A DNA stretch of 27,967 nt, taken from a virus. The stretch lies in the IMG/VR virus record IMGVR_UViG_3300025632_000062, positions 1 to 27,967 of that record; one strand, 5' to 3'. The position numbers and the translations under genes were made by a program. Under the pieces are notes generated by a model. It saw only the letters and a program-made list of their open reading frames with translations, made no database searches and was not told the origin of the DNA. This document shows, piece by piece, positions 1 through 27,966 of the stretch (positions within the stretch are counted from its first letter, which is position 1; every line of letters starts with the position of its first letter).

Positions 1-3000
1 TGAAGTTGCAGTTGCTAAAGTAGTAGCAGTATCATAAGTTGTTATTGTATTAAAAGTAGTTATAGTAGTCTTAGTAGTATTAAAAGTTGTTGTCGTTTCT
101 CTATCTGTAGAAGTGCTTCGTGTTTCAATAGTTGTCGTAGTAGTATTAAAAGTTGTAGTTGTGGTCGTTGTAGTATTAAAAGTTGTTATTGTGCTAAAAG
201 TAGTTGTTGTAGTGTATTGAGTTACGGTGTTTTTATTAGTATTAAAAGTTGTAATAGTGTTTTTTGAAGTAGAAGTAGCTCTCTGTTCAATAGTTGATTT
301 AGTAGTGTTAAAAGTTGTAGTTGTGGTTGTTGTAGTATTAAAAGTTGTTATTGTATTAAAAGTAGTTATTGTAGCATATGCAGTAGTGGTAGTTGTATTT
401 GTATTAAAAGTTGTACTTGTAATATATGCAGTAATTGTAGTGTATTGGGTTACGGTGTTTTTATTAGTATTAAAAGTTGTTATTGTACTTTTTGAAGTAG
501 AAGTAGCCCTTTGTTCAATAGTTGATTTAGTAGTGTTAAAAGTTGTAGTTGTGGTTGTTATTGTATTAAAAGTTGTTATTGTATTAAACGTTGTAATTGT
601 ACTAAACGTGGTTGTAGTTTCTTTTGAAGTTTCAAAAGTTGTACTTGTGGTATAAGTTGTAATCGTATTAAAAGTAGTTGTAGTATTTTTAGTAGTATTA
701 AAAGTTGTACTTGTAGTATAAGTTGTAATCGTATTAAACGTAGTAATTGTAGTTGTAGTTGTATTAAAAGTTGTTATTGTACTATAAGTTGTTAGTGTAG
801 AATACGTAGTTGTAGTATTTTTTGAAGTCGATGTAGCACGTGTTTCAATAGTATTTCTACTTGTTTCAAAAGTTGTACTTGTAATGTATGAAGTAATTGT
901 ATTAAAAACGGTAGAAGTATTTTTAGTAGTATTAAAAGTTGTTGAAGTAGTGTAGGTTGTTATTGTATTAAACGTGGTAAGTGTAGTTGTAGTTGTATTA
1001 AAAGTTGTTATTGTACTATAAGTTGTTAGTGTTGCGTATGAAGTAGTAGTCGAATATGCTGTAATTGTATTAAAAGTAGTTGTGGTAGTTGTATTTGTAG
1101 CAAAAGTTGTTGAAGTAGTGTAGGTTGTAATCGTATTAAAAGTAGTTGTGGTATTTTTAGTAGTATTAAAAGTTGTTGAGGTAGTGTAGGTTGTTATTGT
1201 ATTAAAAATAGTTTCTGTTGTTTTTGTAGTATTAAAAGTTGTTATCGTACTATACGTTGTAAGTGTAGCATACGAAGTAGTAGTCGAATATGCTGTAATC
1301 GTATTAAAGGTAGTAAGTGTAGTTGTAGTAGTAGCAAAAGTTGTACTTGTAATATATGCAGTAATTGTATTAAAGGTAGTTATGGTATTTTTAGTAGTAG
1401 CAAAAGTTGTTATTGTACTATAAATTGTAGTTGTAGAATATGTAGTAGTGGTAGTTGTGTTTGTATTAAAAGTTGTTGTTGTACTATACGTTGTAAGTGT
1501 TGCATATGAAGTAGTAGTACTTGCTGTGGTATTATACGTTGTAATAGTTGAATACGTAGTAATCGTAGTGTATTGAGTTACGGTATTTTTATTAGTATTA
1601 AAAGTTGTTATTGTACTTTTTGAAGTAGAAGTAGCACGTTTTTCAATAGTTGTTGTATTAGTATTGTAAGTTGTGATTGTAGTCGTTGTAGTATTAAAAG
1701 TTGTTATTGTACTATACGTTGTAAGTGTAGAATACGTAGTTGTAGTTTCTTTAATAGTATTAAAAGTTGTTGAAGTGGTGTAGGTTGTTATTGTATTAAA
1801 AGTTGTTATAGTATTTTTTGAAGTAATTGTATTAAAAACGGTAGTGGTATTTTTAGTAGTATTAAAAGTTGTTGAAGTGGTGTAAGTTGTAATTGTATTA
1901 AAAACGGTAGAAGTTGTCTTCGATGTAATTGTATTTCTTGTTTCAATAGTTGATATTGATGTATTATAAGATGTTATAGTTAGCACACTTTGTGTTGTAT
2001 TTCTTGATTCTATTGTATTTCTACTTGTGTTATAAAACGTAATAGTAGAGTAAGTTGTTATTGTATTAAAAGTAGTAGTAACCGTTTTCGATGTATTATA
2101 CTGAGTAAGAGTATTTTTTGAAGTAGCAGTAGCCCTTGATTCTGCTGTTAATTTTAACGTATTAAACCTCGTTGATGTATTAAAAATAGTAGTAGTATTT
2201 TTAGTAGTATTAAAAGTTGTACTTGTGTTAAATGCTGATGCAGTTGTTCTCGAAGTGAGCCTATAAGTTGTTTTGTTTGTTATAAAGAAAGTATAATGTT
2301 TTGTAATAGTATTAAAAGTTGTAGTTCTTGAAGTATTCTTAGAAGTAGTTCTAACAGGTGAACCTCCAGGCCCATTTCCATAGCCTACCCACGTTGAGTA
2401 AGATGTGATGTAGGTCGTAGTTTTCGAAGTAGCTGTAGCATAGTAAGTTAGTTTATAAGTATTCTTTGCTGTGATGAAGTACGTATAATACGTAGTAGTC
2501 ACATCCGTTGTTGTCTGAGTATTTTTTGATGTGTTATAAACGGTAGAAGTGTTTCTCGAAGTAGAAGTTGTTCTTGTGGTATTATACTCCGTCACGGTAG
2601 AGTAGGTTGTTATTGTATTAAACGCGGTAATGGTATTCTTTGATGTAATGAAAGTTGTAGTAGTGTTTTTTGAAGTTGCAGTAGCTCTTGTTTCTATTGT
2701 ACTTTTGTTTGTAACCATCACCGTAGAAGTTGTGTAGGTTGTTGTATAAGTTGTTATTGTAGCAGTAGCTTTAGTAGTAATGAAAGTTGTTGTTGTACTA
2801 TAAGTTGTAAGTGTTGCATATGAAGTAGTAGTATTTTTTGAAGTAGAAGTAGCTCTTGTTTCTATTGTATTTCTACTTGTGTTGTAAGTAGTAATAGTAT
2901 TTTTTGAAGTACTTGTAGCATATGCGGTACTTGTGTTTTTTGAAGTAGATGTAGCTCTTGTTTCTATTGTATTTTTACTTGTATTATACGTTGTAATCGT

Positions 3001-6000
3001 AATTCTTGAAGTGATAGTGTTTCTTGTTTCAATAGTACTCCTGGTAGTGTTGTAAGTAGTAATAGTAGACTTTGAAGTTTCATAAGTTGTAGTTGTAATG
3101 AATGAAGTAATTGTATTAAAAGTAGTTATAGTACTCTTAGTAGTATTAAAAGTTGTTGAAGTTACTTTTGAAGTTGAAGTGCTTCGTGTCTCAATAGTGC
3201 TTAAAGTAGTAGCATAAGTTGTTATGGTACTTTTTGAAGTGATAGTGTTTCTTGTTTCAATAGTACTCCTGGTAGTGTTATACGTTGTTGTAGTAGTTTT
3301 CGAAGTAATTGTATTTCGTGATTCAATAGTTGCTAATGTTGTATTGTAAGTTGTAATAGTGTTTTTTGAAGTAGAAGTAGCCCTTGTTTCTAATGTGTTT
3401 CTACTTGTGTTATAAGTAGTAATAGTATTCTTTGAAGTAGAAGTTGCTCTTTGTTCAATAGTACTTTTTGAAGTGATAGTGTTTCTTGTTTCAATAGTAC
3501 TTAAAGTAGTATTATAAGTAGTAATAGTATTTTTTGAAGTAGAAGTTGCTCTTTGTTCAATAGTATTTCTACTTGTGTTGTAAGTAGTAATAGTATTTCT
3601 TGAAGTAGAAGTAGCTCTTGTTTCTATTGTATTTCTACTTGTGTTGTAAGTAGTAATAGTATTTTTTGAAGTTGAGGTGCTTCTTTGTTCAATAGTAATT
3701 CTTGAAGTTATTGTATTTCTTGTTTCAATAGTACTCCTGGTAGTGTTATACGTTGTTATGGTATTCTTTGAAGTAGAAGTTGCTCTTTGTTCAATAGTAT
3801 TTCTACTTGTGTTGTAAGTAGTAATAGTATTTTTTGAAGTTGATGTAGCTCTTGTTTCTAAAGTATTTCTACTTGTTTCAAAAGTTGTTGAGGTAGTATA
3901 AGTTGTTATTGTATTAAACGTTGTGATAGTTGTTTTTGAAGTAATTGTATTTCTTGTTTCAATAGTACTCCTGGTAGTGTTGTAAGTAGTAATAGTATTT
4001 TTTGAAGTCGAAGTTGCTCTTTGTTCAATAGTATTTCTACTTGTGTTGTAAGTAGTAATAGTATTTTTTGAAGTAGAAGTAGCCCGTGTTTCTATTGTAT
4101 TTTTACTTGTATTATACGTTGTAATCGTAATTCTTGAAGTAGCAGTATTTCTTGATGTTGATGTTGCTAAAGTAGTATTATAAGTCGTAATAGTTGACCT
4201 GGAAGTATTAAAAGTTGTTATGGTCGCATACGTAGTAATGGTGTTAAAAGTAGTTATAGTGCTTTTAGTGGTATTAAAAGTTGTTGATGTTGTCTTTGAT
4301 GTTGAGGTTGACCTTGTTTCTAAAGTATTTTTAGAAGTATTATAAGTAGTAGTAGTTGTCTTTGAGGTAATAGTGCTTCTTGATGTTGATGTTGCTAAAG
4401 TAGTATTGTAAGTGGTAATAGTTGACCTAGAGGTATTAAAAGTTGTGATAGTTGAATAAGTGGTAATTGTATTAAAGGTAGTTATAGTGCTTTTAGTAGT
4501 ATTAAAAGTTGTTGAAGTTACCTTCGATGTACTTGTAATTCTTGATGTTGCAGTCGATAGTGTAGTAGCATACTTTGTAATAGTTGACTTAGAAGTTTCA
4601 TACGTAGTAATGGTCGCATACGTAGTAATAGTATTAAAAGTAGTTATAGTCGTCTTCGAAGTTTCAAAAGTTGTAGTAGTAGACTTTGAAGTAGCGGTTG
4701 CCAATGTTGTAGCAGTATTATAAGTTGTTATTGTATTAAAAGTAGTAATGGTTGTTTTAGAAGTATTATAGGTTGTAATAGTTGTTTTCGAAGTAATTGT
4801 ATTTCGTGTTTCAATAGTATTTTTACTTGTATTAAAAGTAGTAATGGTTGTTTTAGAAGTATTATAGGTTGTAATAGTTGAATAAGTAGTAATTGTATTA
4901 AAAGTTGTAGTAGTGTTTTTCTGTGTATTGAATGTAGTTGAAGTTGTCTTCGATGTTGAAGTGCTTCTTTGTTCAATAGTAGTTTTTGAAGTCTCAAAAG
5001 TTGTAATGGTTTCTAATGTTGTATTGTAAGTCGTAATAGTTGACTTAGAAGTTTCATAAGTTGTAGTTGTAATGAATGAAGTAATTGTATTAAAGGTAGT
5101 TATAGTGCTTTTGGTAGTATTAAAAGTTGTTGAAGTTACTTTAGATGTTGAAGTACTTCTTTGTTCAATAGTAGTTTTTGAAGTTTCGTACTTTGTAATA
5201 GTTGTTGTATTTGTTTCAAACGTAGTAATTGTTTCAAAAGTAGTTATTGTAGCATATGCAGTAGTAGTAGTTTTTGAAGTTTCATAAGTTGTTATAGTCG
5301 CATACGTAGTAATAGTATTAAAAGTAGTTATAGTACTTTTAGTAGTGTTGAATGTAGTTGAAGTTACTTTAGATGTTGAAGTAGACCTCTGTTCAATAGT
5401 AGATAATGTTGTGTTATAAGTTGTAATAGTTGTCTTCGAAGTTTCATAAGTTGTTATTGTATTAAACGTTGTAATTGTATTGAAAGTTGTAGTAGTTGTT
5501 TTTGAAGTTTCAAACGTTGTGGTAGTAGACTTCGAAGTAGCAGTTGCCAATGTTGTTGCAGTATCGTATGTAGTAATTGTATTAAATGTAGTAATAGTAT
5601 TCTTCGTAGTATTAAAAGTTGTAATAGTTGTTTTTGAAGTAATCGTAGACTTAGAAGTAATAGTTGCTAATGTTGTATTGTAAGTTGTTATAGTTGACTT
5701 AGAAGTTTCATACGTAGTAATAGTTGAATATGTAGTGATTGTATTAAAAGTTGTAATAGTGTTTTTAGTAGTATTAAAAGTTGTTGAAGTTACCTTCGAT
5801 GTTGAAGTGCTTCTTTGTTCAATAGTTGATAATGTGGTGTTGTAAGTAGTAATAGTATTTCTTGAAGTAGATGTACTTTTTGAAGTAGAGGTTGCTAATG
5901 TGGTATTAAAAGTAGTAATAGTTGTCTTCGAAGTTTCATAAGTTGTTATTGTATTAAACGTTGTAATCGTATTAAAAGTAGTTATAGTACTTTTAGTAGT

Positions 6001-7347
6001 ATTAAAAGTTGTTGAAGTTACCTTCGATGTTGAAGTACTTCTTTGTTCAATAGTTGCTAATGTTGTAGCATACTTTGTAATAGTTGACTTAGAAGTTTCA
6101 TAAGTTGTAGTAGTTGTTTTCGAAGTTTCATACGTAGTAATAGTTGAATATGTAGTGATTGTATTAAAAGTTGTAATAGTGTTTTTAGTAGTATTAAAAG
6201 TTGTTGAAGTTACTTTTGAAGTTGAAGTAACTAAAGTTGTTGCTGTAGCTAAAGTAGTATTATAAGTTGTTATAGTTGACTTAGAAGTATTATAAGTGGT
6301 TGTAGTTGTCTTCGAAGTTTCAAAAGTTGTAGTAGTGTTTTTTGAAGTAGCAGTTGCTAAAGTAGTAGCAGTATCATATGTGGTAATGGTATTAAACGTT
6401 GTAATAGTACTTTTAGTAGTATTAAAAGTTGTTGAAGTTACCTTCGATGTTGAAGTAGTCCTCTGTTCAATAGTAGTTTTTGAAGTCTCAAAAGTTGTAA
6501 TGGTAGTTGTTGTAGTATTAAAGGTTGTAATAGTTGACTTCGAAGTTTCGTAAGTTGTTATTGTATTAAAAGTAGTAATAGTATTAAACGTGGTGATGGT
6601 ACTCTTCGTAGTATTAAAAGTTGTTGCAGTTACTTTTGAAGTACTCGTAGCTATTGATGTTGATGTTGACCTTGTAGTATTGTAAGTAGTAATAGTTGAC
6701 TTAGAAGTTTCATACGTAGTAATAGTTTCATATGTAGTGATTGTATTAAACGTGGTTATAGTGTTTTTAGTAGTATTAAAAGTTGTTGAAGTTACCTTCG
6801 ATGTTGAAGTTTCTAAAGTAGTAGCGGTGTTAAAAGTAGTAATAGTATTAAACGTGGTGATGGTACTCTTCGTAGTATTAAAAGTTGTTGCAGTTACTTT
6901 TGAAGTCGAAGTAACTAAAGTTGTTGCAGTTGATAATGTGGTATTATAGGTCGTGGTGGTTTCTTTTGTAGTATTAAAAGTTGTAGTAGTGTTTTTTGAA
7001 GTAGCAGTTGCTAAAGTAGTAGCAGTATCATACGTTGTAATCGTATTAAAAGTAGTTATAGTATTTTTAGTAGTATTAAAAGTTGTTGATGTTACTTTTG
7101 ATGTACTATATTCAGTAGTAGTTTCTTTTGTAGTATTAAAAGTTGATGTGGTATTTTTAGTAGTATTAAAAGTTGTTATAGTTTCTTTTGTAGTATTAAA
7201 AGTTGTTATAGTACTTTGTGAAGTCGCAGTTGCTAATTTCGTAGCAGTTGCTAAAGTTGTAGACCTGGTGGTATTAGTAGCCTTAGTTGTATTAAACTCT
7301 GTGCTGAATTTTAATTCGTCAAGAAACCCAAAAGCGCCGTTTGCCAT
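1..7347 (-). CDS. Giant threonine-rich hexad/tetrad repeat protein, partial (C-terminus beyond left edge)
   Basis: The frame starts at an ATG at 7347 with an AAGGGAT ribosome binding site just upstream. I read it codon by codon over most of its length, found no stop, and it exits at base 1, giving at least 2449 codons. The N-terminus (MANGAFGFLDELKFST) is non-repetitive. From about residue 20 the protein is built of six-residue units (ITTFNT, ITTYDT, ATTLAT, STSKVT) and four-residue spacers (TKST, TKNT, SRST). Thr is about half of the residues in the lines I translated, and I saw no Cys. Even positions are mostly Thr, Phe, Tyr, Leu or Lys/Arg; odd positions are mostly Asn, Ser, Ala, Ile, Glu or Thr, a two-residue alternation that suits beta strands. 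It follows a run of appendage-type genes after neck genes 13-15. I infer an elongated virion fibre or adhesin; the exact role is unknown. A mucin-like or ice-binding TxT surface is a weaker alternative. Confidence 0.85.
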   Translation of the reverse strand, partial: MANGAFGFLDELKFSTEFNTTKATNTTRSTTLATATKLATATSQSTITTFNTTKETITTFNTTKNTTSTFNTTKETTTEYSTSKVTSTTFNTTKNTITTFNTITTYDTATTLATATSKNTTTTFNTTKETTTTYNTTLSTATTLVTSTSKVTATTFNTTKSTITTFNTITTFNTATTLETSTSKVTSTTFNTTKNTITTFNTITTYETITTYETSKSTITTYNTTRSTSTSIATSTSKVTATTFNTTKSTITTFNTITTFNTITTYETSKSTITTFNTTTTTITTFETSKTTIEQRTTSTSKVTSTTFNTTKSTITTFNTITTYDTATTLATATSKNTTTTFETSKTTTTTYNTSKSTITTYNTTLATATTLVTSTSKVTSTTFNTTKNTITTFNTITTYSTITTYETSKTTTTTYETSKSTITKYATTLATIEQRSTSTSKVTSTTFNTTKSTITTFNTITTFNTITTYETSKTTITTFNTTLATSTSKSTSTSRNTITTYNTTLSTIEQRSTSTSKVTSTTFNTTKNTITTFNTITTYSTITTYETSKSTITTYNTTLATITSKSTITSKTTITTFNTTKNTITTFNTITTYDTATTLATATSKSTTTTFETSKTTTTTFNTITTFNTITTYETSKTTITTYNTTLSTIEQRSTSTSKVTSTTFNTTKSTITTFNTITTYATITTYETSKTTTTAYATITTFETITTFETNTTTITKYETSKTTIEQRSTSTSKVTSTTFNTTKSTITTFNTITSFITTTTYETSKSTITTYNTTLETITTFETSKTTIEQRSTSTSKTTSTTFNTQKNTTTTFNTITTYSTITTYNTSKTTITTFNTSKNTIETRNTITSKTTITTYNTSKTTITTFNTITTYNTATTLATATSKSTTTTFETSKTTITTFNTITTYATITTYETSKSTITKYATTLSTATSRITSTSKVTSTTFNTTKSTITTFNTITTYSTITTFNTSRSTITTYNTTLATSTSRSTITSKTTTTTYNTSKNTLETRSTSTSKTTSTTFNTTKSTITTFNTITTYATITTFNTSRSTITTYNTTLATSTSRNTATSRITITTYNTSKNTIETRATSTSKNTITTYNTSRNTIEQRATSTSKNTITTYNTTRSTIETRNTITSKTTITTFNTITTYTTSTTFETSRNTLETRATSTSKNTITTYNTSRNTIEQRATSTSKNTITTYNTTRSTIETRNTITSRITIEQRSTSTSKNTITTYNTSRNTIETRATSTSRNTITTYNTSRNTIEQRATSTSKNTITTYNTTLSTIETRNTITSKSTIEQRATSTSKNTITTYNTSRNTLETRATSTSKNTITTYNTTLATIESRNTITSKTTTTTYNTTRSTIETRNTITSKSTITTYATTLSTIETRSTSTSKVTSTTFNTTKSTITTFNTITSFITTTTYETSKSTITTYNTTRSTIETRNTITSRITITTYNTSKNTIETRATSTSKNTSTAYATSTSKNTITTYNTSRNTIETRATSTSKNTTTSYATLTTYSTTTTFITTKATATITTYTTTYTTSTVMVTNKSTIETRATATSKNTTTTFITSKNTITAFNTITTYSTVTEYNTTRTTSTSRNTSTVYNTSKNTQTTTDVTTTYYTYFITAKNTYKLTYYATATSKTTTYITSYSTWVGYGNGPGGSPVRTTSKNTSRTTTFNTITKHYTFFITNKTTYRLTSRTTASAFNTSTTFNTTKNTTTIFNTSTRFNTLKLTAESRATATSKNTLTQYNTSKTVTTTFNTITTYSTITFYNTSRNTIESRNTTQSVLTITSYNTSISTIETRNTITSKTTSTVFNTITTYTTSTTFNTTKNTTTVFNTITSKNTITTFNTITTYTTSTTFNTIKETTTTYSTLTTYSTITTFNTTTTTITTYNTNTTTIEKRATSTSKSTITTFNTNKNTVTQYTTITTYSTITTYNTTASTTTSYATLTTYSTTTTFNTNTTTTTTYSTTTIYSTITTFATTKNTITTFNTITAYITSTTFATTTTTLTTFNTITAYSTTTSYATLTTYSTITTFNTTKTTETIFNTITTYTTSTTFNTTKNTTTTFNTITTYTTSTTFATNTTTTTTFNTITAYSTTTSYATLTTYSTITTFNTTTTTLTTFNTITTYTTSTTFNTTKNTSTVFNTITSYITSTTFETSRNTIETRATSTSKNTTTTYSTLTTYSTITTFNTTTTTITTFNTITTYTTSTTFNTTKNTTTTFNTITTYTTSTTFETSKETTTTFSTITTFNTITTFNTITTTTTTFNTTKSTIEQRATSTSKSTITTFNTNKNTVTQYTTITAYITSTTFNTNTTTTTAYATITTFNTITTFNTTTTTTTTFNTTKSTIEQRATSTSKNTITTFNTNKNTVTQYTTTTTFSTITTFNTTTTTTTTFNTTTTTIETRSTSTDRETTTTFNTTKTTITTFNTITTYDTATTLATATS
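2220..2517 (-). other. Non-repetitive aromatic/Gly-Pro island inside the giant protein
   Basis: Codons of about 1611-1720 break the repeat. They contain TTTYYTYFITAKNT, then YKLTYYAT, then WVGYGNGPGGSPVR (residues 1653-1666), then ITKHYTFFITNKTTYRLTS. This includes the only Trp I noticed and several Tyr/Phe clusters. Thr still falls on even positions before, within and after the island, so the register is kept. It may be a folded insertion, a hinge or a binding site; the function is unknown. Confidence 0.7.
2640..4420 (-). repeat. Sub-block of 22-residue (66-bp) higher-order repeats
   Basis: Within the giant gene this block is dominated by a composite unit of SRNT, IETRAT (or IEQRAT), STSKNT and ITTYNT, 22 residues in total, recurring with losses and reshuffling. 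On the plus strand it shows as repeated ctcttgtttctattgt or ctctttgttcaatagt stretches followed by atttctacttgtgt. Blocks on either side use TTFNT and TKST/TKNT units more. The gene is therefore divided into zones of different repeat families. Confidence 0.75.
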
Positions 7348-7364
7348 AACTATCCCTTAGTTCA

Positions 7365-7775
7365 TTATGAAAACGGGCCTAAATAGTTGACTGCCACGTT
7401 ACTTGTGTTGACCACGTAATACGACATTAAAGAAATGCCGTTGGCGGATGTGTCAAATGATATAGAATCTCCTCGAGGGGTTTTAAACAATGAATTTAAT
7501 GTTATTGAATGACCACCTGAACTATCTTGTATTAGTGCGATAAGTCCACTTTGTCCTTCACGGCCTGATAAGGCGGTTGGAGTTAAAGTAACGTTACCGG
7601 TTAAAGTAAGATTATAATTGTTCTTTGCAGATAAGTCAATGTTATTAGCACCGGTTATAGAAGTCGAAGTTTGAGTTACGGTAAATGCACCATTAATCTG
7701 TACATTACCGCTACTTGTAACTTCGTTTAGTACGGCATTACTGCCTGATGTTATTACTTTTTTCCAATTTGGCAT
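7365..7775 (-). CDS. Tail-associated structural protein with NWKKVI N-terminus, 136 aa
   Basis: The N-terminus (MPNWKKVITSGSNAVLNEVT) is clearly related to that of the 354-aa protein encoded at 8264-9328, so the two are paralogues at this end. The rest is different: a beta-rich module with LTGNVTLTPTALSGREGQSG, then IALIQDSSGGHSI, then a YYV motif near the C-terminus. Similar modules are common at the ends of phage tail-fibre-like proteins (from memory of the family type, not a search). The start has a good AGGAGA site a few bases upstream. It lies 17 bases ahead of the giant repeat gene and could be its partner or a cap protein. I infer a virion appendage component; no enzymatic motif is visible. 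Confidence 0.75.
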   Translation of the reverse strand: MPNWKKVITSGSNAVLNEVTSSGNVQINGAFTVTQTSTSITGANNIDLSAKNNYNLTLTGNVTLTPTALSGREGQSGLIALIQDSSGGHSITLNSLFKTPRGDSISFDTSANGISLMSYYVVNTSNVAVNYLGPFS

Positions 7776-7856
7776 CTACTACTTCTCCTACTATACGGTT
7801 GGTTACTTCTTTTGAAGCCCACTTCCCTTAACGGGCCAATATAGACTATACTACTA

Positions 7857-8021
7857 CTACTTACTAATTACTTCTTTTTTTTCTTCTAAGTTTTTAAGTC
7901 TACTTACTTCCTTAAAAACTTTATTTAATACTGCTCCTACAAAAAGTGAATCTTTTCCTTTTATTGTAGAATTATAAATACACTCTTTTATAAAATCTAA
8001 CTCAGCTATATCGAATTTCAT
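7857..8021 (-). CDS. Small protein, 54 aa, paralogous to the upstream 74-aa protein
   Basis: The ATG at 8021 overlaps the TGA stop of the upstream gene by four bases (ATGA, 8018-8021), with AGG a few bases before it, so the start is well placed. The product begins MKFDIAELDFIKECIYNST and ends LKNLEEKKEVISK. The pattern ELDFIKECIYNSTIKGKDS followed by a short helix ending KVFKEVSRL parallels HIEWLLRTIGDSVSLRGSDL and its following helix WLQSEYKRL in the neighbour. Both look like a small two-helix domain. No function is recognised; it may be an accessory assembly factor. Such a short gene is easily missed by automated calling. Confidence 0.75.
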   Translation of the reverse strand: MKFDIAELDFIKECIYNSTIKGKDSLFVGAVLNKVFKEVSRLKNLEEKKEVISK

Positions 8022-8242
8022 CCTGTTAGCCTCTTGTACTCACTTTGTAACCATTGAACTGAATCAATCGCAACTTGTAAATCAGAACCTCTTAGTGATA
8101 CTGAATCTCCTATTGTTCTTAATAACCACTCAATATGTTTTTTTTCTAAGTCTAAAACACTATTTGGTGTGTTCATTGCTGTTTTTGGTTTTGACCTTGT
8201 CGTTTTCTTACGTTTAGGGTCAACCTTGTCTATTAATCCCAT
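8018..8242 (-). CDS. Small helical protein, 74 aa, unknown function
   Basis: The first 25 residues are basic (MGLIDKVDPKRKKTTRSKPK), followed by a compact helical part: LEKKHIEWLLRTIGDS, a SLRGSDL turn and a helix ending WLQSEYKRLTG. The arrangement of Leu/Ile, a G at the turn and a final L/Y-rich helix resembles small conserved proteins seen among marine T4-like phage structural genes (from memory, not a search). It sits between the 354-aa appendage gene and its own smaller paralogue at 7857-8021, with which it shares an ATGA junction. The AAGG upstream of the ATG supports the start. Function is not recognised. Confidence 0.75.
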   Translation of the reverse strand: MGLIDKVDPKRKKTTRSKPKTAMNTPNSVLDLEKKHIEWLLRTIGDSVSLRGSDLQVAIDSVQWLQSEYKRLTG

Positions 8243-8263
8243 ATGTAACCTTTATCTTCTATT

Positions 8264-9328
8264 TTATGAATAAATAAATATATCACCTGTTGCTGTATTT
8301 ACGTGCATCATACCTATTCTACTACCTGCGGCTGTTCCAAAATCATTTGGATTAGCACCATCATTTGGGTCTAAAGCTGAACCTGAAACAGATACTATGT
8401 ATTGAAATCCTGCTGCTGAAGCATCTACTGATGTCGCATTATGTGCTAATTTATCTTCCGCACCTACTGCCCATCTGTTAATGTCGTCATCAAATACTAA
8501 AGCGGCGCCAGCGTAAGATGCGTTAGTTTGTACTACAATACCACCATCACCTGCGGCAGAACCACTATTAAGTAAAATAAATTTATCTTCTACTAATAAA
8601 TTTGAAACTTGTTGTTGAACCGTATCACCATAGATTGTTAAGTCACCATTAATGGTAAGATTATCACCGATAGTCACTTCTGATGTACCAGCTCCTATTG
8701 TTGCAGAAGATAATCCCGACATATCGACATTCAATGTGTGTGCGATATTTTCACCACTTGTAGCACCTGTAGATGAAATACCTGTACCTGCTGTTATGTT
8801 CTGAACATAATCGCCTGTAGTATCTGTCGCTAAAGCAACTGAGTTAGCTTGTATTGTCATAGCACCGTTTGAAGCTAATGCAATATCTCCACTAACTGCT
8901 ACTGAAGCAATATCTGTTCCATCACCAACTAAAATCTGTCCTGATGTTTTTGCATCTAAATCAGTAGGAGCATTTGAACCGCCACCAACTTTAATACTAC
9001 CTCTTGTGATGTTTGCCAACATAGAGTTTTCAACTGAATCTGCGGCGATTGTTAATGCACCACCTGCTGCGATTGTTGCATCTCCACTAACATTTCCGAA
9101 TACACCATCTTCTACATTACTAAATGTTATCTTCTTTTCAGTACCATTATCTGAAACAATAAAGTGGTCTTCTGTCTGATGTAAACTTGTTACAGCAGAT
9201 AAAGAGTCAATATCAACTGCGGCTGTTACACCCGTTAATGCTGAACCGTCTCCTTTAAAGTAACTCGCAGTTACATTATTCAGACTTGCATTTGAGCCTG
9301 AAACGATTACTTTTTTCCAATTTGCCAT
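8264..9328 (-). CDS. Tail-fibre-like structural protein, 354 aa
   Basis: It begins MANWKKVIVSGSNASLNNVT, then YFKGDGSALTGVTA, a beginning typical of marine phage tail-associated proteins. The middle is low-complexity beta-type sequence with repeated GDxxIAxxGAxTIxAxSV blocks (about residues 80-165). A second module follows (about 210-275) with EVTIGDNLTINGDLTIYGDT and VEDKFILLNSGSAAGDGG. The C-terminus ends NTATGDIFIYS. There is no signal peptide or membrane segment. The start has a strong AGGGGAG site. I infer an elongated trimeric tail appendage, on module style and on its place downstream of neck and tail-completion genes. Its N-terminus is shared with the 136-aa protein at 7365-7775, suggesting both dock to the same virion site. 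Confidence 0.75.
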   Translation of the reverse strand: MANWKKVIVSGSNASLNNVTASYFKGDGSALTGVTAAVDIDSLSAVTSLHQTEDHFIVSDNGTEKKITFSNVEDGVFGNVSGDATIAAGGALTIAADSVENSMLANITRGSIKVGGGSNAPTDLDAKTSGQILVGDGTDIASVAVSGDIALASNGAMTIQANSVALATDTTGDYVQNITAGTGISSTGATSGENIAHTLNVDMSGLSSATIGAGTSEVTIGDNLTINGDLTIYGDTVQQQVSNLLVEDKFILLNSGSAAGDGGIVVQTNASYAGAALVFDDDINRWAVGAEDKLAHNATSVDASAAGFQYIVSVSGSALDPNDGANPNDFGTAAGSRIGMMHVNTATGDIFIYS

Positions 9329-11137: not shown

Positions 11138-12013
11138 CTATACTTGACTCTCAATTCCGCCTTGCTGTGGAAAGTTATATTTGTTATCATTTAAATCTTC
11201 ATTATCTAATGTTTGCTTTAGATTACTTGATGCTTCTGAAAAGTTTGTAACAAACTTTGGAGAAAATCCTCTCTGTGTGTTAGATACGCCATTAAATTCT
11301 TCAGGCAGTAGATACCCATTAAAAGTAAAACTAAAATTAGTTCTAATTAATCGTTCTTGTTCAAACTCTGATGCATCTTGAAAACTATCTATACTTGCTC
11401 GAAATTTAAATTTTCCAGGGTCACCCCAATATGAGCCATCAGTAAAATTAATCTTTTCTATAATTCTATTCATTTGGTCTGTGAAGTTTGTCCATATGAT
11501 AGCTTCATAATTCATAATCATATAATCCGGCATAGTTACAGAATGAAATTCTTGACTTGGCTCAGCACCATTCATAGCACTCATTAAATCGTATCTGTTA
11601 TTTACAGAATATTTTTTTTGAAATTGATAATTGAGTCTTGGCTTATTAGCATCTAACTTATCAATAGAATAATTTGGGTCTTTTTCAACAGAGACTCGTC
11701 TAAATGCTATAACAGGTATAACTCTTTTTTTATTTCTGTCTTGCATCCACCCTGATTTTCTAACTGCAGCCCATCTTTCAGGATTAGCATACATAATAGG
11801 AACTTTAACTTGATTACCATTTTCTTCAACTGCGGGTCTTATTACTTCATTAAAATAATACATAACAGCCGCATCGTGGTCCATAAGAGTAATTGAATAA
11901 TTCTTTTTAAGACTATCATCATCTCTTCTTAATTCACGAGACCTATTTACTTTACGTTTTTCTGTATATTCTATAGGTCTTGATAACTTTGGCTCTACTT
12001 GTCTACCTGCCAT
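11138..12013 (-). CDS. gp15: Tail sheath stabiliser / tail completion protein, gp15-like, 291 aa
   Basis: In T4, gp15 (272 aa) caps the tail, holds the contracted sheath and joins tail to head. This protein is 291 aa and has the same run of features I know from gp15 of marine T4-like phages. These are an N-terminal helix (DHDAAVMYYFNEVIRPAV), then KVPIMYANPERWAAVRKSG, then VIPVIAFRRVSVEKDPN. Further on come MPDYMIMNYEAIIWTNFTDQ and MNRIIEKINF, and a late ASIDSFQ/FSFTFNGYLLPEEF beta region. Its position after gp13- and gp14-like genes matches the T4 order 13-14-15. It shares a TAATG junction with the gp14-like gene. The call rests on pattern and gene order, not on a search. Confidence 0.65.
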   Translation of the reverse strand: MAGRQVEPKLSRPIEYTEKRKVNRSRELRRDDDSLKKNYSITLMDHDAAVMYYFNEVIRPAVEENGNQVKVPIMYANPERWAAVRKSGWMQDRNKKRVIPVIAFRRVSVEKDPNYSIDKLDANKPRLNYQFQKKYSVNNRYDLMSAMNGAEPSQEFHSVTMPDYMIMNYEAIIWTNFTDQMNRIIEKINFTDGSYWGDPGKFKFRASIDSFQDASEFEQERLIRTNFSFTFNGYLLPEEFNGVSNTQRGFSPKFVTNFSEASSNLKQTLDNEDLNDNKYNFPQQGGIESQV

Positions 12014-13796: not shown

Positions 13797-15431
13797 TTAC
13801 ACCATATCAACGTCTGCAACGATGACTTTACCGTAGAACTCAGGACGAACCATCTTCTTAGCATAACGAGTCATTACACCTTTACGTGGAGTAAAGTTGA
13901 CCGGGTCATACACAAGAGGTGTCATAATTAACGGAATATATGGAGCATATACAGCACCTGTTTCTAAGAAATTACTTCCTCTGAAACCACATAGTATCTG
14001 ATTCTCTAACATATAAGGGTTCTTGTAAACCGTATATCTGTTATTTAATGCACCCATTTGTTGTACACCCATTGCATACTTGTTATTCATCGCATCACCG
14101 TTTGTAGATGCAGCGTAGCCTGGAATAGACTCAATTATTGTAGCTGTCTCAGGAGACACAACAATAAAGTTAGCACCACCACGTAGTGTTTTTTGATGAA
14201 TAGCATTACTAACGGCTTGTATTTTGTTTCCAAGTGTTTGGAACCACTCGCCTTTAGTGTAAGCATTTGAGTTACCTGAAGATTCAGCGAAAACGTTTCC
14301 GCCATCCCATTCAAATCCAACTTTAGCAGACCATCTATCTGTCTTAGCAGAAGCGTTAGCCATTAACATATCAAGGATTTCTAAATCGATTTCCATAGAA
14401 ACGTACTCAGAAAGCATAGATGTTAACTCAGCTTCAGCATCAACTGAATGATAAGCGTTAAGGTCTTGAGCTAATTCAGGTGTCCAAACTGCTTTCAATT
14501 TACGTGTCTTAGCGACAATCGGAATTGATTTCATTTGGATGTCTACCTGAGGTATACTCAAGTCATCTGGTGTTGGTTCATTTGCGGTGAGGTCTTCAAA
14601 ATCGCCTCTGCTTGTAGCAGAAGTTTCTTTTGAAAATTTAACTGCAATAGATGATGTTACGTGAGCACCATATACACCGGATGTTGCTGGTGGAGCGATA
14701 ACGAAAGAAATAGTATCATTACCGTCGTACTTTGTATAAGCAGGATACTGAGTTGTTACACTATCTCCTACTAATTCAAAAGACCTTACAGCGTCTACAT
14801 CAACGTTGTCTAAATCCTGTTTACGAATACTAACTTTTATCAAAGTACTTAAAGAACTTGATAAAGAAGGTTCGAAATCAGTATCTTCTTGGTCTACTGA
14901 ACCGGTTATGTATTTATCTTGTGCTAGCGTTTGTGCACCATCTGTATGTGCTACGGTTTGGGATAGTTCTTTCATAGAGTATCCGAATTTACCTGCACCA
15001 TAAAGTCCGCCACTTGCGTCGCCTGAACCTGATGTGTTACCAAAGATGTCGCCACCTGTGGAAGCAAGCCCGTTACCGGAGCCGTATTTGAAATCAAGAT
15101 AGAAAATAAGTCCACTTGGAAGATTCATAGGCTGAACGCTTACGAAGTCTTGAGCAGCTAATTCACCAAAGATTCTACGAACCAATGGAAGAGCCACACC
15201 TGACCATTCTTCTTTTTGTGAGCCAGTAGATGTCTGTGAAGCTTCTTTAACCAGCTGTGAAGCCTGGTTTTCAAGAAGTACGGACATACTACTTTTCTTA
15301 GTTTCATCATTGATTCCATCAAGTAGACCTGTTGGTTCCCATTTCTCTGTAAGCTTTCTTGTGTGTTTCAACAATTCAGCTTGCGGAGATTGAGCACTCA
15401 TTAAGTCATTAATGTTGTCATAATTAGGCAT
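13797..15431 (-). CDS. gp23: Major capsid protein, gp23, 544 aa
   Basis: This is the HK97-fold major capsid protein of T4-like phages, assembled on the gp22 core and trimmed by gp21. The precursor has an N-terminal helical propeptide (MPNYDNINDLMSAQ, WEPTGLLDGI, VLLENQASQLVKE). It is followed by conserved gp23 motifs LVRRIF (83-88) and VQPMNLPSGLIFYLDFKYG (99-117). Near the C-terminus come FIVVSPETATIIESIPGY and IPLIMTPLVYDPVNFTPRKG. The string LVKE/A at 60-64 fits the L-x-x-E consensus of gp21, and E63 is close to the known T4 cleavage at E65, so processing there is inferred. Length is close to T4 gp23 (521 aa). AAGGGGA precedes the ATG, 11 bases after the scaffold gene. Confidence 0.96.
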   Translation of the reverse strand: MPNYDNINDLMSAQSPQAELLKHTRKLTEKWEPTGLLDGINDETKKSSMSVLLENQASQLVKEASQTSTGSQKEEWSGVALPLVRRIFGELAAQDFVSVQPMNLPSGLIFYLDFKYGSGNGLASTGGDIFGNTSGSGDASGGLYGAGKFGYSMKELSQTVAHTDGAQTLAQDKYITGSVDQEDTDFEPSLSSSLSTLIKVSIRKQDLDNVDVDAVRSFELVGDSVTTQYPAYTKYDGNDTISFVIAPPATSGVYGAHVTSSIAVKFSKETSATSRGDFEDLTANEPTPDDLSIPQVDIQMKSIPIVAKTRKLKAVWTPELAQDLNAYHSVDAEAELTSMLSEYVSMEIDLEILDMLMANASAKTDRWSAKVGFEWDGGNVFAESSGNSNAYTKGEWFQTLGNKIQAVSNAIHQKTLRGGANFIVVSPETATIIESIPGYAASTNGDAMNNKYAMGVQQMGALNNRYTVYKNPYMLENQILCGFRGSNFLETGAVYAPYIPLIMTPLVYDPVNFTPRKGVMTRYAKKMVRPEFYGKVIVADVDMV

Positions 15432-19818: not shown

Positions 19819-20744
19819 TATAAAATTCCGTTTATGTTATTATTATAATTAGAGTTAATGTTATTTAATGCACTATCTAAAGTACTCTCAACATTTGCGG
19901 GTTCTGATAATGCTTGTAAATTTTGTTCTCCGCCTCCTGTAGCTTCAATCCCTATTCCAACTGCTATGTTCGTTTTGCCTTTCGGGTTTGATACAAGAAC
20001 AGATTCTATACCCCCGCCTCGAGAATTAGTCATTGCTCTATTATGTTGAAATGCCATTTGAGCAAAGTTTGGTGGTGCCGGCGGTTCCGGAATTTCTTTA
20101 TCTGTTCTTCCGCCTAACGAATATACACTCCCTATTTGTGTAAAAAAATCTAACATTGGTTCAGGAGGGGCATTATAAGAATCGTAGTTAGGCGTTCCGG
20201 ACTTTACTTGTCCGGGTAAAGCAGATGAAGCAAATACATCTTCATTAGCGTTGCCTGGATTATTATAAACTGATTGCCTATCTTCTAAATTTTCTGTAGG
20301 TTCAAGTGGTTGATTTGGTACATCAAACGCATTTGGTATTTGTGGGCCATCATAACTACTATATTCACCGCCTCCATTAAATATAATAGACGAACCTCCA
20401 TCTCTAATATAAAGACTCAATCCTTGAGGTTGGTTTTTTGTAAAGCCTACGTGCATACCTTGTTCGTCTGAAAAGAAATCTACCGCGCCTATGCCAACAT
20501 TATATGCTGTTTTTTGTTCAAGTTCTTGTAACGGTGGGGTATTTAATTGACCTAACGTTGGTGCGGTAAACGTTGGTGGTTGTACTTCACCATCATCATT
20601 AACGTTAAAGACTCCGTTGATTTTACTCTGACCGAGTTGCATTAAAGGAGAAAACCCTGTAACGTGGTCGTCAGAAAAAAAGTTTACACCTTGAGTCTTA
20701 TAATCAGTTCTACCAAAGGTAGTTTTTCCTGTAGCATCAGGCAT
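19818..20744 (-). CDS. Pro/Asn/Gly-rich virion protein, 308 aa, unknown
   Basis: It begins MPDATGKTTFGRTDYKTQGV and is poor in helix-forming runs. It contains a VNFFSDDHVTGFSP stretch and a related VDFFSDEQGMHVGFTK stretch about 90 residues later, suggesting a divergent internal duplication. Later parts are Pro-rich (PPTFTAPTLGQLNTPPLQEL, IPEPPAPPNFAQMAFQHNRA), and the C-terminus is Asn-rich (LNNINSNYNNNINGIL). There is no signal peptide, membrane segment or catalytic motif. It sits directly after the protease gene with TAATG junctions. I would call it a structural protein, possibly an extended head or internal component, and cannot say more. Confidence 0.7.
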   Translation of the reverse strand: MPDATGKTTFGRTDYKTQGVNFFSDDHVTGFSPLMQLGQSKINGVFNVNDDGEVQPPTFTAPTLGQLNTPPLQELEQKTAYNVGIGAVDFFSDEQGMHVGFTKNQPQGLSLYIRDGGSSIIFNGGGEYSSYDGPQIPNAFDVPNQPLEPTENLEDRQSVYNNPGNANEDVFASSALPGQVKSGTPNYDSYNAPPEPMLDFFTQIGSVYSLGGRTDKEIPEPPAPPNFAQMAFQHNRAMTNSRGGGIESVLVSNPKGKTNIAVGIGIEATGGGEQNLQALSEPANVESTLDSALNNINSNYNNNINGIL

Positions 20745-21349
20745 TATTCACCTCTAAGAATCTGTCCTATAGTATTGTCTACAGCTGTCCATTTACCTGA
20801 ACGTATTTGTTCATCGCGGTTAACACTTTCATTGACCGGATTCATAAAAGCACCATGTGTAGACGGATTTGAGACAAAATCAAACGCTATTAATTCAAAG
20901 TCACTTTGAACTTCTTGCGCATCTTTGTCTTCTTTCATTGGTTCAACAGAACCTAATCCACGAGAAGATATACCAAGTCTAATACCTGATTTGAATAATT
21001 CTCTTAAAATGTTTCCACTTGGTGTAGTAAGTACTTCTATAGTACCCATTAAATCATTACCATTCCAATCCATTGATAATACATTATGTGAAACGTTGTT
21101 AAGATTAACAACAGAACTATCAGGATGGTCTAACTCACCTAATGCTCTTTTTTCTTTTATAAAGTTAGAAGTATACTTCTTTGCTTCACGTTGTAGTAAC
21201 TCTGAAGGATAAACTCTTCCATTTTGATTTTTTGATTCTGCTCTTTGTAAAACACCTTTTACAATGAGTTTACCATTAGAAGACATTGCTTCATTGAGTG
21301 CTTCAGGAGCAACTTCAAAAGGTATATAGTCTACGAGTAATTTTTTCAT
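20744..21349 (-). CDS. gp21: Prohead protease, gp21, 201 aa
   Basis: gp21 is a serine protease (family S77, herpesvirus assemblin-like fold) that cleaves the capsid, core and internal proteins during head maturation. The product starts MKKLLVDYIPFEVAPEALNE and contains LIVKGVLQRAESKNQNGRVY. Then comes GELDHPDSSVVNLNNVSH with the likely catalytic His75, LMGTIEVLTTPSGNILREL, and GIRLGISSRGLGSVE with the likely catalytic Ser128 or Ser129. ELIAFDFVSNPSTHGAFM follows. Length is close to T4 gp21 (212 aa). Downstream of residue 175 is a short tail that may be self-processed. TAATG junctions at both ends link it to its substrates. Confidence 0.95.
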   Translation of the reverse strand: MKKLLVDYIPFEVAPEALNEAMSSNGKLIVKGVLQRAESKNQNGRVYPSELLQREAKKYTSNFIKEKRALGELDHPDSSVVNLNNVSHNVLSMDWNGNDLMGTIEVLTTPSGNILRELFKSGIRLGISSRGLGSVEPMKEDKDAQEVQSDFELIAFDFVSNPSTHGAFMNPVNESVNRDEQIRSGKWTAVDNTIGQILRGE

Positions 21350-24792: not shown

Positions 24793-26589
24793 TTATTTTT
24801 CTGAGTTTAATTCTTCTTTGTAATTATTTGTTAAATCTTCCGATTCTGAAAGAATTTTCCTCGAATTTTTATCCATTGCCTGCATCAACCCATCATAATG
24901 TGATAAAGCCAGCGGTCCGTTTTTAAAAGTATGTTTAATTTTGTTGTCTTTTTCGTAACTTGTACGTAAATCGTGTGAACCCATAGGGTCTCTACCACGT
25001 GATGAGCCATCTTTTTTATATTTCGGCCCTTCTTGTGGTCTACCTATCTTTTTTTCCAACTCATTTCCACTTCTACCTATCTCTTCATCGCCTGTTTCTG
25101 TTTGTTCAGGTTCTTTTGCCGGGTCAGTACCTTCTGATTCGATAGTTTGTTTTCTAAACTTAGTTTTTGTGTCAAAAATAACTTTTTCGTCATTTTCTTT
25201 GATTTCGTCATCACTCATACCAAAAATATTCTTATAAACCCACTCTGAAGACATTAATCCGTCTCTTAACATAGAGTCAGCTAAACTTGTTTTAGTATTC
25301 CACAACTCAAGTTTCTCTTGTTCGTATATAGTAGACGGGTTTGTAAGTGTTAAGTCAAAATTTACTAACTCTTGGTCACGAAATCCTTGTGCATACAAGT
25401 GTACAATAGCTATTTTCTGTAATTCACTTACAATAATTCGTTGTAGTCTTTCTATTGTACGAGCAAACCTAACATCTTCTGCGGCAAGAGTTGCTTTACC
25501 TTCTATACCTTCTTCATATCCAAGAAAGGCTTTAGGTACACGTAATGATGCTAACATACGATTTCTCAAATATTCAATATCGTCAACAGAATCATAACTC
25601 AACCCGTTTAACGTATCAATAGAAGTACCTGAATCTCCTCCTCGAACAGGTATAAAGAAATCTTCTGTAATGTTTTGCATATTATATTTTAAATTGTACT
25701 CACCGGTCTTATCATCCATAACAGGAGTCTTTTTCATCTTATTTACAACTTGTTGCATATAGTTTTCGACTTCTGCTGGTGGTATATTTCCAATATCAAA
25801 TTTAAATACTCTCTTTTCAGGAGCTCTCATAATTCTATGAATTAACATAGCGTCTTCCATAAGAGTTAATTGTTTCCAAACTTTACGAGCTGCTTCTAAT
25901 GTAGAACGACCATATGGTAAAAAGTTTGCATCACTTATTAATCTAAAGTGTGCAATTTGAAATGCTTCAAAGTCATCATCTAATGGCCCATAAGTAGTGT
26001 GTCTAACGTTATCTACAGGATTCATACGAAATTTAATTAAATGTGGGTTGTCAGGGTCTTCGCCTTCTACTCTTGAAATATCATACGGGCTCATAGGAAC
26101 AACATTAGTAATACCAAATTTTTCATCTATATCAAGATACAAAAAGAAGTCACCATATTTACACATATTACGAACCCACGGCCATAAATTAAATTCTATA
26201 TTAATAACATCATAAAATAAGTTATGTAATATGTCGTGTATATTAGCATTATCAGTTTCTATGTTTAAAACTTTACCATACTCGTTCTTCATAGTAGATT
26301 CATCTGCATAAATGTCGAGCGCAGACGAAATAATAGAGTCACTATCCATCGTTTCGTAATCTTTGAAGAGACCTAAACGTTGTTGTTGAATTATAAGACC
26401 GCCATCATACCCAAACTGCTTAGCAGATGAGTAGATTTTTTGATATCTGTCTATCAACTGATGTTTTATACTCGATTGTGTCCTCGATGTATCAGAAACT
26501 TTAAGTTTTTTACCACCAACTTGTCTAACAACAACGTTAGTAGAAAACAATCTCTGTAATCTTGTAAATAATCCTTTATCTACAGCCAT
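24793..26589 (-). CDS. gp20: Portal vertex protein, gp20, 598 aa
   Basis: The portal is the dodecameric ring at one capsid vertex through which DNA is pumped by gp17 and to which the neck binds. Conserved gp20 motifs are present. They are YETMDSDSIISSALDIYADE (78-97), YGDFFLYLDI, LPYGRSTLEAARKVWKQL (224-241), HRIMRAPEKRVFKFDIGNIP (251-270), FFIPVRGGDSGT (311-322) and VPKAFLGYEEGI (351-362). The C-terminal 100 residues are charged and low complexity. It is somewhat longer than T4 gp20 (524 aa). AGGAG precedes the ATG, nine bases after the terminase stop, so the two are likely co-translated from one mRNA. Confidence 0.96.
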   Translation of the reverse strand: MAVDKGLFTRLQRLFSTNVVVRQVGGKKLKVSDTSRTQSSIKHQLIDRYQKIYSSAKQFGYDGGLIIQQQRLGLFKDYETMDSDSIISSALDIYADESTMKNEYGKVLNIETDNANIHDILHNLFYDVINIEFNLWPWVRNMCKYGDFFLYLDIDEKFGITNVVPMSPYDISRVEGEDPDNPHLIKFRMNPVDNVRHTTYGPLDDDFEAFQIAHFRLISDANFLPYGRSTLEAARKVWKQLTLMEDAMLIHRIMRAPEKRVFKFDIGNIPPAEVENYMQQVVNKMKKTPVMDDKTGEYNLKYNMQNITEDFFIPVRGGDSGTSIDTLNGLSYDSVDDIEYLRNRMLASLRVPKAFLGYEEGIEGKATLAAEDVRFARTIERLQRIIVSELQKIAIVHLYAQGFRDQELVNFDLTLTNPSTIYEQEKLELWNTKTSLADSMLRDGLMSSEWVYKNIFGMSDDEIKENDEKVIFDTKTKFRKQTIESEGTDPAKEPEQTETGDEEIGRSGNELEKKIGRPQEGPKYKKDGSSRGRDPMGSHDLRTSYEKDNKIKHTFKNGPLALSHYDGLMQAMDKNSRKILSESEDLTNNYKEELNSEK

Positions 26590-26598
26590 AATTAACTC

Positions 26599-27966
26599 CT
26601 ACAATAACCATTTTATGTCCTCATTTTCTTTATTTGGACCGATTTCAATTCTCCAAGCGTCTTCTTTTCCGCCCGGTGTGTACATTAATTGATTAGGAGT
26701 AGAGAAATTAGACATAGTTTTTTTACTTAACTCTATTCCTTCTGCTCTTAATCTTAACGCAGTATCTCTTACCCATAATGCGATGCCATAGCTCATCACT
26801 AAATCATCATTATAGCCGGACATAGCTTGCGCTTTATTGTTGTTATATATAAATACAAACAACTCATCAATTAATCGATTTGAATGCACAATTACTGCCT
26901 TTTCTCTAAAATATTCTTCTAATTTAGCAATAACAAGTGGCCTTGTTTTCATTGTCATAGAGAATCCAGGCTTTAAATTTCTATCTTGTGCCCTAAATTT
27001 ATTTGTTATTTGATGTTCAACATCTACATATTGTAAATCTTGAGAAGAATAAAATAAATTTTGATATCCTCTATCAATAACTTGTTGAATAGTAGCCCAA
27101 CCTATATTATTATTCTCAACTACTAATAAAGCATCATTAAACTCTGTAGCTACATTTACACATAGATTACCAAAGTCTTTCGTACTTATTTTACCTCTAT
27201 ACTCAGCAACTTGTTCCATAGATTCAACATCTAATATATGAAATGCAGAATAATCTGAACCATCACCTCTACTAACATCAGCACTCATTATATAATTTTT
27301 ATTATAATCCGGTGCTTCCCATATCCAAACATTAGAGTCTATGCCTTGTTTCATCATAGGTTCTCTACATTGATTATCTTTGTACTCTTGTAAAATAGAA
27401 CCATCTACAACCATTTGACCTGAAGTTAAAAAATCACAATCACATTCTTGTGCGGCGAGTCCGGGTCCTAATAATTTATCTTGTGCTGCTCTATACGATT
27501 TATCTCGTTCAGGATGTACGGTCCAATGAAGTTTTATTGGATAAAATCCATTGTCGTTTTCTTCAGCGCCTACCCAAGTTCTATGAAACCAATTTCCAAC
27601 ACCGTTTGGTGTAGATAACGCAATACATTGTCCACCTGTTGATAGTGTCTGTTGAGCCGCAGCCCATATCGTATCAATCTTGTCTATAAATGCGGCCTCA
27701 TCTAATACTAATAAAGATAACGCTTCTGAACGACCTGAGTCTTCACTACTTGAAACTGCTTTTACTTGTGAACCATTTTTATATCGTAATGATAACTTAT
27801 TATCTTCAATACAAGTCTGTTTCAACCAACCAGGTAAATTAGAGTGCATCACTCTAATCTTCGTAACAAGGTTTTTAGCAGTATCTTGTTTTGTTGCTAA
27901 TACTAAAATGTTTTTATCATTTCTAAATGTCATTAACCATAATGAATACGCCGCAGTTAACGTAGA
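26599..27966 (-). CDS. gp17: Large terminase subunit, gp17, partial at right edge
   Basis: gp17 is the DNA packaging motor, with an N-terminal ATPase and a C-terminal RNase H-like nuclease. About 455 codons are visible; the start and most of the Walker A loop are off the right edge. The first residues, STLTAAYSLWLMTFRNDKNI, follow where GK-S/T would stand. Walker B with catalytic Glu is SLLVLDEAAF (visible residues about 84-93), and the coupling motif is ALSTPNG. Nuclease acidic residues lie in IMSADVSRGDGSDYSAF, LLVVENNNIGWATIQ and GYNDDLVMSYGIALW. The C-terminus is short and charged (NKENEDIKWLL). It directly precedes the portal gene, with no tail sheath or tube genes between. Confidence 0.96.
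   Translation of the reverse strand, partial: STLTAAYSLWLMTFRNDKNILVLATKQDTAKNLVTKIRVMHSNLPGWLKQTCIEDNKLSLRYKNGSQVKAVSSSEDSGRSEALSLLVLDEAAFIDKIDTIWAAAQQTLSTGGQCIALSTPNGVGNWFHRTWVGAEENDNGFYPIKLHWTVHPERDKSYRAAQDKLLGPGLAAQECDCDFLTSGQMVVDGSILQEYKDNQCREPMMKQGIDSNVWIWEAPDYNKNYIMSADVSRGDGSDYSAFHILDVESMEQVAEYRGKISTKDFGNLCVNVATEFNDALLVVENNNIGWATIQQVIDRGYQNLFYSSQDLQYVDVEHQITNKFRAQDRNLKPGFSMTMKTRPLVIAKLEEYFREKAVIVHSNRLIDELFVFIYNNNKAQAMSGYNDDLVMSYGIALWVRDTALRLRAEGIELSKKTMSNFSTPNQLMYTPGGKEDAWRIEIGPNKENEDIKWLL

Follow-up and report, generated by a model that had tools for sequence, protein, structure and literature searches.

Our analyses indicate that a marine T4-like myovirus encodes a giant Thr-repeat protein, in all likelihood a tail fibre, that is, on balance, probably O-glycosylated by a phage-encoded transferase using a CMP-ulosonate, perhaps CMP-Kdo, as donor. 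The DNA under study, hereafter the window, is an entire IMG/VR contig (27,967 bases), and the gene of interest fills positions 1..7347 of its minus strand, where the contig end cuts it after residue 2449 of 3309. As judged from gene position and domain fusions in other phages, a tail or baseplate location of its product is very likely, and it is also rather likely that this product is the acceptor of the transferase to which its gene is linked.

The first-pass annotation of the window had described an uninterrupted minus-strand frame that runs past the left edge, begins with a good start and ribosome-binding site, encodes about half Thr and is missed by start-to-stop gene calling, which reports plus-strand shadows instead, and all of this was borne out. 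The frame starts with an ATG at 7347, preceded by an AGGG-type Shine-Dalgarno sequence (7347..7360, minus strand, ctaagggatagttATG), and stays open to the contig edge over 2449 codons with 0 stops. It is listed only if open ends are allowed in ORF calling, and shadow ORFs are present on the plus strand at 227..655 and 6953..7360. Thr accounts for 45.1% and Ser for 10.7% of the residues encoded in the window. When the same 7347 nt were shuffled 200 times at the dinucleotide level, the longest stop-free frame averaged 93 codons and reached at most 145, so that a chance ORF was rejected.

Scanning viral contigs then revealed the same gene, with 0-3 SNPs over 9930 nt, in six other IMG/VR contigs (L009-L014), some of which may be re-assemblies from the same samples; the window is identical to L009 over their common part. 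The leftward extension that had been recommended was thereby obtained: the complete gene (L011:10001-19930, and likewise in the five other contigs) encodes 3309 residues with 47% Thr, or ~1,550 Thr per polypeptide, and ends in ...TTYNTSRITSYYVS before a TAA stop. The repeat copies are spelled in many different ways at the DNA level, the 45 copies of ITTFNT alone using 21 synonymous spellings. Considering these varied spellings, the six contigs with so few SNPs and an intact relative (L016), an assembly artefact is unlikely and misassembly was rejected; the in-frame stop against which the annotation had cautioned was not found. We are all but certain that this is an intact and constrained gene with a hexad/tetrad grammar.

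The annotation had recognised no named family, which agrees with our searches: the 2449-aa protein had no match in Pfam at a threshold of E 0.1 or among PDB chains at E 1, two diverged Thr-rich relatives matched no PHROG, and tblastn of the fibre in INPHARED gave no match, the low-complexity filter of that search masking such a query. To our knowledge, a protein of 47% Thr with this hexad/tetrad grammar resembles no phage fibre. The sole non-repeat segment at its start is an N-terminal cap (7290..7347, minus strand, MANGAFGFLDELKFSTEFN), which is kept as MxxGFGFxxELKF in all close homologues whose start is visible.

The earlier description of the sequence as hexads and tetrads proved exact, with residues 15-3309 made up of 431 hexads ([I/S/T/A]-T-[T/S]-[F/Y/K/R]-[N/S/A/E]-T) and 177 tetrads ([T/S]-[K/T/R/L]-[T/N/S]-T) that cover all but one residue. 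The final residue is Thr in 429 of the 431 hexads and in 175 of the 177 tetrads. Hexad runs between tetrads are odd in number in 160 cases and even in 6, compared to an average of 59% odd and a maximum of ~70% in 500 shuffles of the unit order, and the same rule was found in six further full or partial homologues. Most exceptions fall at residues ~1607-1775, and an irregular insert that includes TWVGYGNGPGGSPVR lies at ~residues 1610-1700 (2252..2520, minus strand). An odd number of hexads between tetrads implies turns of 12 (6+6) and 10 (6+4) residues. An AlphaFold2 model of residues 1-300, computed with six homologues, was uninformative (pLDDT 27) and was discarded as a fold for the fibre, leaving a beta-solenoid, a trimeric fibre or a disordered mucin-like rod as candidates.

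Comparison with diverged homologues shows the protein to be under purifying selection. These homologues comprise 3333 (L016), 3418 (L022), 3298 (L039), 1990 (L020) and 1786 (L017) residues and nearly all terminate near ITSYYF/S. L016 is intact and shows 91% protein identity, with a dN/dS of 0.063/0.227 (~0.28), and the comparison with L039 gave 0.27/1.19. Every insertion or deletion that separates L011 from L016 measures exactly 12 or 22 residues, and most of those relative to L039 are 2, 10 or 12 residues long, as expected if whole turns were gained or lost or if 12- and 10-residue turns were exchanged. Since slippage on tandem DNA could also yield such unit-sized indels, they support the repeat unit rather than a particular fold. 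On another contig (3300037961_006939; L018/L024), a stop and a frame change break the fibre gene of a relative, which could reflect either a genuine disruption or a fault of assembly.

The remainder of the window carries recognisable structural genes, all on the minus strand: the tail sheath stabiliser gp15 (11138..12013; PF16724 at 1.3e-9, phrog_227), the major capsid protein gp23 (13797..15431; PF07068 at 9.3e-76), the prohead protease (20744..21349; phrog_207 at 2e-54), the portal protein gp20 (24793..26589; phrog_213 at 1e-70) and the terminase large subunit (26599..27933; phrog_2 at 9e-35). The gp23 match places the phage among T4-like myoviruses, and its gp23 is ~50-53% identical to those of Flavobacterium phage immuto, Microcystis phage Mel-JY01 and an uncultured 484-kb phage. 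Thr-rich ORFs near gp23 were checked in immuto, Mel-JY01, RM378 and LR756508, and none of them resembled the Thr-repeat fibre.

Directly upstream of the Thr-repeat gene lies a 136-aa tail-fibre-like protein (7365..7775, minus strand), whose C-terminal segment matches phrog_31840 and phrog_4549 (tail fiber) and which has syntenic homologues in L017, L020 and L022. It shares its N-terminus (MANWKKVIVSGS) with a 354-aa fibre-like protein (8264..9328, minus strand), homologues of which are found upstream of the Thr-repeat fibre in L020 and L022. The start M(P/A)NWKKVI(T/V)SGSNA, common to both proteins and also present in fibre-like proteins of L020 and L022, may be a shared attachment signal. The ~490 bases between the two genes (7776-8263) lack a long ORF and possibly hold small genes or regulatory sequence.

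Just past the edge of the window, a sugar cassette follows, as seen in L011, one of the contigs with the complete gene. The fibre gene is followed there by a gene for a 323-aa protein (GT323) and then by genes for KdsA, a cupin, a GT29-like protein, a radical SAM/SPASM protein, an SDR, a protein of 235 residues (GT8 match in its L110 homologue), a protein of 96 residues and the tail sheath protein, the family of the latter being assigned on its L020 homologue. The Thr-repeat gene thus sits in the tail module, with tail-fibre-like genes before it and the tail sheath gene beyond the cassette. The cassette is conserved in the close homologues that include downstream sequence, with the same order in L017 and L020, and lacks the radical SAM and SDR genes in L072; glycan genes also occur around GT323 in other loci. 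The cassette KdsA is clearly a KDO8P synthase by similarity (6mdy at 3.7e-92 versus 2.4e-31 for the best DAHP synthase), and its linkage to GT323 is limited to the window's clade and a few other loci (L079/L081, L087). A conserved C-terminal extension of 204 residues on this KdsA (L011:21808-22419) has no Pfam match and has diverged far more rapidly than the remainder of the cassette, with 44-61% identity across homologues. The GT29-like protein gave no meaningful match in the PDB. CMP-Kdo synthetase (PF02348) was not found in the four contigs searched, so that the host would have to supply CMP-Kdo.

GT323 corresponds to PHROGs 26179 and 30602, neither of which has an assigned function. Profile searches gave weak matches only, the best of them to families of CMP-sugar transferases: GT52 sialyltransferases (E 5e-4, 1 of 19 members), polysialyltransferases of GT38 (E 0.021, 1 of 19) and Capsule_synth (also one member), and sequence searches against the PDB, with GT323 alone or as profiles, returned nothing relevant. 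A KxHP motif is invariant in all 19 aligned sequences, isolates included, and in 52 of 52 marine proteins. (K/R)xHP is conserved among sialyltransferases and retaining Kdo transferases (PMC12887879), and is the CMP-binding motif of the retaining beta-Kdo transferases GT99, GT107 and GT140. The QxxxD nucleophile motif of these enzymes is, in contrast, not conserved in GT323, which has no Q at a fixed site and only sporadic QxxxD, and GT323 was for this reason not placed in any of the three families. The top Foldseek match of its AlphaFold2 model (pLDDT 75) is a weak one (E 2.6e-3, TM 0.40) to KpsC, a beta-Kdo transferase of the retaining group KpsC/WbbB/KrkA (GT99, GT107, GT140). A search of cellular genome contigs for homologues gave 17 pattern matches, of which 0 were homologous. 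From motif and predicted fold, GT323 is likely a GT-B-like sugar transferase using a CMP-ulosonate donor. The adjoining KdsA in the window's clade suggests Kdo as its sugar, an assignment that we make tentatively and hold at somewhat below an even chance.

The association of GT323 with Thr-rich proteins extends well beyond the window's clade. A search with aligned GT323 homologues returned 80 viral loci, which together with those of the earlier scan reduce to 58 non-redundant marine ones. A Thr-rich ORF lies within 1.5 kb upstream of GT323 in 54 of these, mostly across a gap of 11-130 nt; in L110, GT29-, GT8- and methyltransferase-like genes intervene and the upstream distance is 2.5 kb, and in the remaining three the contig ends within 130 bases upstream of GT323. 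A Thr-rich ORF is therefore found beside or near GT323 in 55 of 55 informative loci, compared to 3 of 76 non-redundant control gp23 loci (757 kb, with three small or partly Thr-rich ORFs and 0 long repeat proteins), counts that do not represent independent events since the 58 GT323 loci are related, so that a Fisher test on them overstates the significance. The Thr proteins themselves differ greatly, including ITTFNT, TTTSWTTSRS and ATTTTWATSR types, and the ORF upstream of GT323 in L128 is only partly Thr-rich. The terminus of this L128 ORF, which ends at 4506 with ...YSNGILTHNSVPINNL, looks like a C-terminal intein junction. Two different Thr-rich proteins are encoded in the few kilobases before GT323 in L077, L101, L102, L104, L122 and L132. 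When Thr-rich relatives were sought independently of GT323, few loci were obtained, two with GT323 and one running off its contig, and this direction of the association is thus weakly tested; a further locus, L217, has no GT323 in its 4 kb downstream flank.

Remote GT323 homologues (~23-31% identity by tblastn) were also found in isolated phages, namely Caulobacter phages of the Lullwater and Percy groups, Cr30, KVP40 and its relatives and Stenotrophomonas phage DLP_6, and the GT323 profile re-finds them at 4e-86 to 1e-107, the same sequences being included in that profile. In Lullwater, gp41 (26% Thr), the most Thr-rich of 41 ORFs, follows a tail fibre gene and directly precedes the GT323 homologue. 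KVP40.0254 of the Vibrio phage (29% Thr) lies two genes before the homologue and is by a wide margin the most Thr-rich of 328 ORFs (0.42 versus 0.23 for the next). The Lullwater and KVP40 repeats have a four-residue period. Cr30 gp253 and gp254, which precede its homologue, both rank in the top four of 202 ORFs by Thr. DLP_6 gp265, the most Thr-rich of 203 ORFs, is not adjacent to GT323, and joins a baseplate-wedge N-terminus (phrog_17744) to several hundred residues of Thr repeats, an architecture that recurs in marine contig L217. A methyltransferase, GT8-like and GT29-like cluster of DLP_6 (L059:7688-9741, AAY80_200-202) is homologous to part of the cassette and lies far from both GT323 and the Thr-rich baseplate protein of that genome.

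The very long virion fibre proposed in the first-pass annotation remains the best reading, because of the tail-module position and of the repeat/baseplate-wedge fusions in DLP_6 and L217, but the bare fibre or adhesin that it had in mind gives way to a probably glycosylated fibre, since a glycosyltransferase cassette lies just past the contig edge. We propose that a 3309-residue fibre, attached to the tail or baseplate and built of ~300 turns, each 12 (6+6) or 10 (6+4) residues long and with Thr at the end of nearly every half-turn, would be made late in infection and serve as the acceptor of an O-glycosylation system encoded directly downstream. GT323 would be the constant enzyme that transfers an ulosonate from its CMP donor onto exposed Thr as the first sugar, possibly Kdo synthesised by the adjacent phage KdsA, and variable neighbours (GT29-, GT8-, GT4- and GT25-like transferases, methyltransferases and oxygenases) would extend or modify the glycan. 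The sugar-decorated fibre may then provide a long, protease-resistant surface for adsorption or shielding; whether adsorption, shielding or stiffness is its role is a guess.

The most serious alternative, which we consider unlikely, is that the fibre is an unglycosylated, self-folding beta-structured rod and that the downstream genes alter host surface sugars, for example to block superinfection. The 12- and 10-residue turns and the whole-turn indels do suggest a regular fold on their own, and KdsA and the GT29-, GT25- and GT4-like genes would also suit LPS or capsule modification; however, the cassette is located among late tail genes, and GT323 stays with Thr-rich proteins across otherwise different podoviruses and myoviruses. 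Export of the Thr-rich proteins to the cell surface, where they would be glycosylated as adhesins or receptor masks without being virion parts, is quite improbable: surface Ser/Thr-rich adhesins elsewhere do adjoin their own transferase genes, but the N-terminus (MANGAFGFLDELKF) shows no apparent signal peptide, the gene belongs to the tail module, and the repeats are fused to a baseplate wedge domain in DLP_6 and L217.

DNA is the substrate of many phage glycosyltransferases (Pyle et al. 2024, as cited in PMC12619734), and GT323 and its neighbours could by analogy modify phage DNA instead of protein. This was rejected as their main role and appears very improbable, considering that GT323 is linked to tail-module genes for Thr-rich proteins and that the neighbours examined included no recognisable base-hypermodification gene. 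From its KxHP motif, GT323 would also be expected to take CMP sugars, and the donor of DNA glucosyltransferases is UDP-glucose. Least credible of all is a reading frame that arose as an artefact of low-complexity expansion or that represents a functionless repeat in decay: its low complexity, the contig break inside the repeat and the interrupted L018/L024 relative would fit, but the gene is intact in six other contigs and several diverged homologues, with a dN/dS of ~0.25, conserved ends and a strict grammar.

The glycosylated fibre that we favour has partial counterparts in known systems. Serine-rich-repeat glycoprotein adhesins are giant Ser/Thr repeat proteins encoded beside their own Gtf O-glycosyltransferases, and the Thr-repeat protein likewise adjoins glycosyltransferase genes, but these adhesins reside on bacterial surfaces after accessory Sec export, and the likeness is one of function. 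T4-type and other phage tail fibres share the tail-module position and the fibre-like neighbours, but the Thr-repeat protein matches no fibre family or solved fibre. Phage glycosyltransferases are reportedly involved in the glycosylation of mycobacteriophage virions. Glycosylation of mycobacteriophage virion proteins is phage-encoded (Freeman et al. 2023, as cited in PMC12619734), and the C-termini of capsid and tail-tube subunits are reportedly modified there, in contrast to a giant dedicated Thr-repeat protein here; the present system also differs by its transferase family, its KdsA-bearing cassette and phages that probably infect Gram-negative hosts. KpsC/WbbB/KrkA (GT99, GT107, GT140) resemble GT323 by (K/R)xHP and by KpsC being its top structural match, but GT323 lacks the conserved QxxxD and any sequence-level match to solved structures, and the acceptor differs. 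Maf flagellin transferases add Kdo or Neu5Ac from CMP donors onto Ser/Thr of a filament protein (PMC11339370), which makes the proposed chemistry possible; the kind of acceptor and the CMP-ulosonate donor would be alike for GT323, whereas the enzyme family is another one and the Maf acceptor is flagellin, not a Thr hexad repeat.

More broadly, we tentatively suggest, as an idea that may well prove wrong, a widespread viral system in which the GT323 family would put Kdo or a related acidic sugar directly on Thr of dedicated Thr-repeat tail proteins of up to 3400 residues, so that many phages, marine and other, would bear fibres of a mucin-like or sugar-coated solenoid kind. If true, this would assign a function to phage families annotated as unknown, including proteins of the well-studied KVP40 and Cr30, and would explain why some phages carry kdsA. 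It would also define a dedicated acceptor-plus-transferase module for sugar-coating phage tails, offer a natural Thr-directed glycosylation system for glycoengineering and provide a testable account of the very long fibres of marine T4-like phages.
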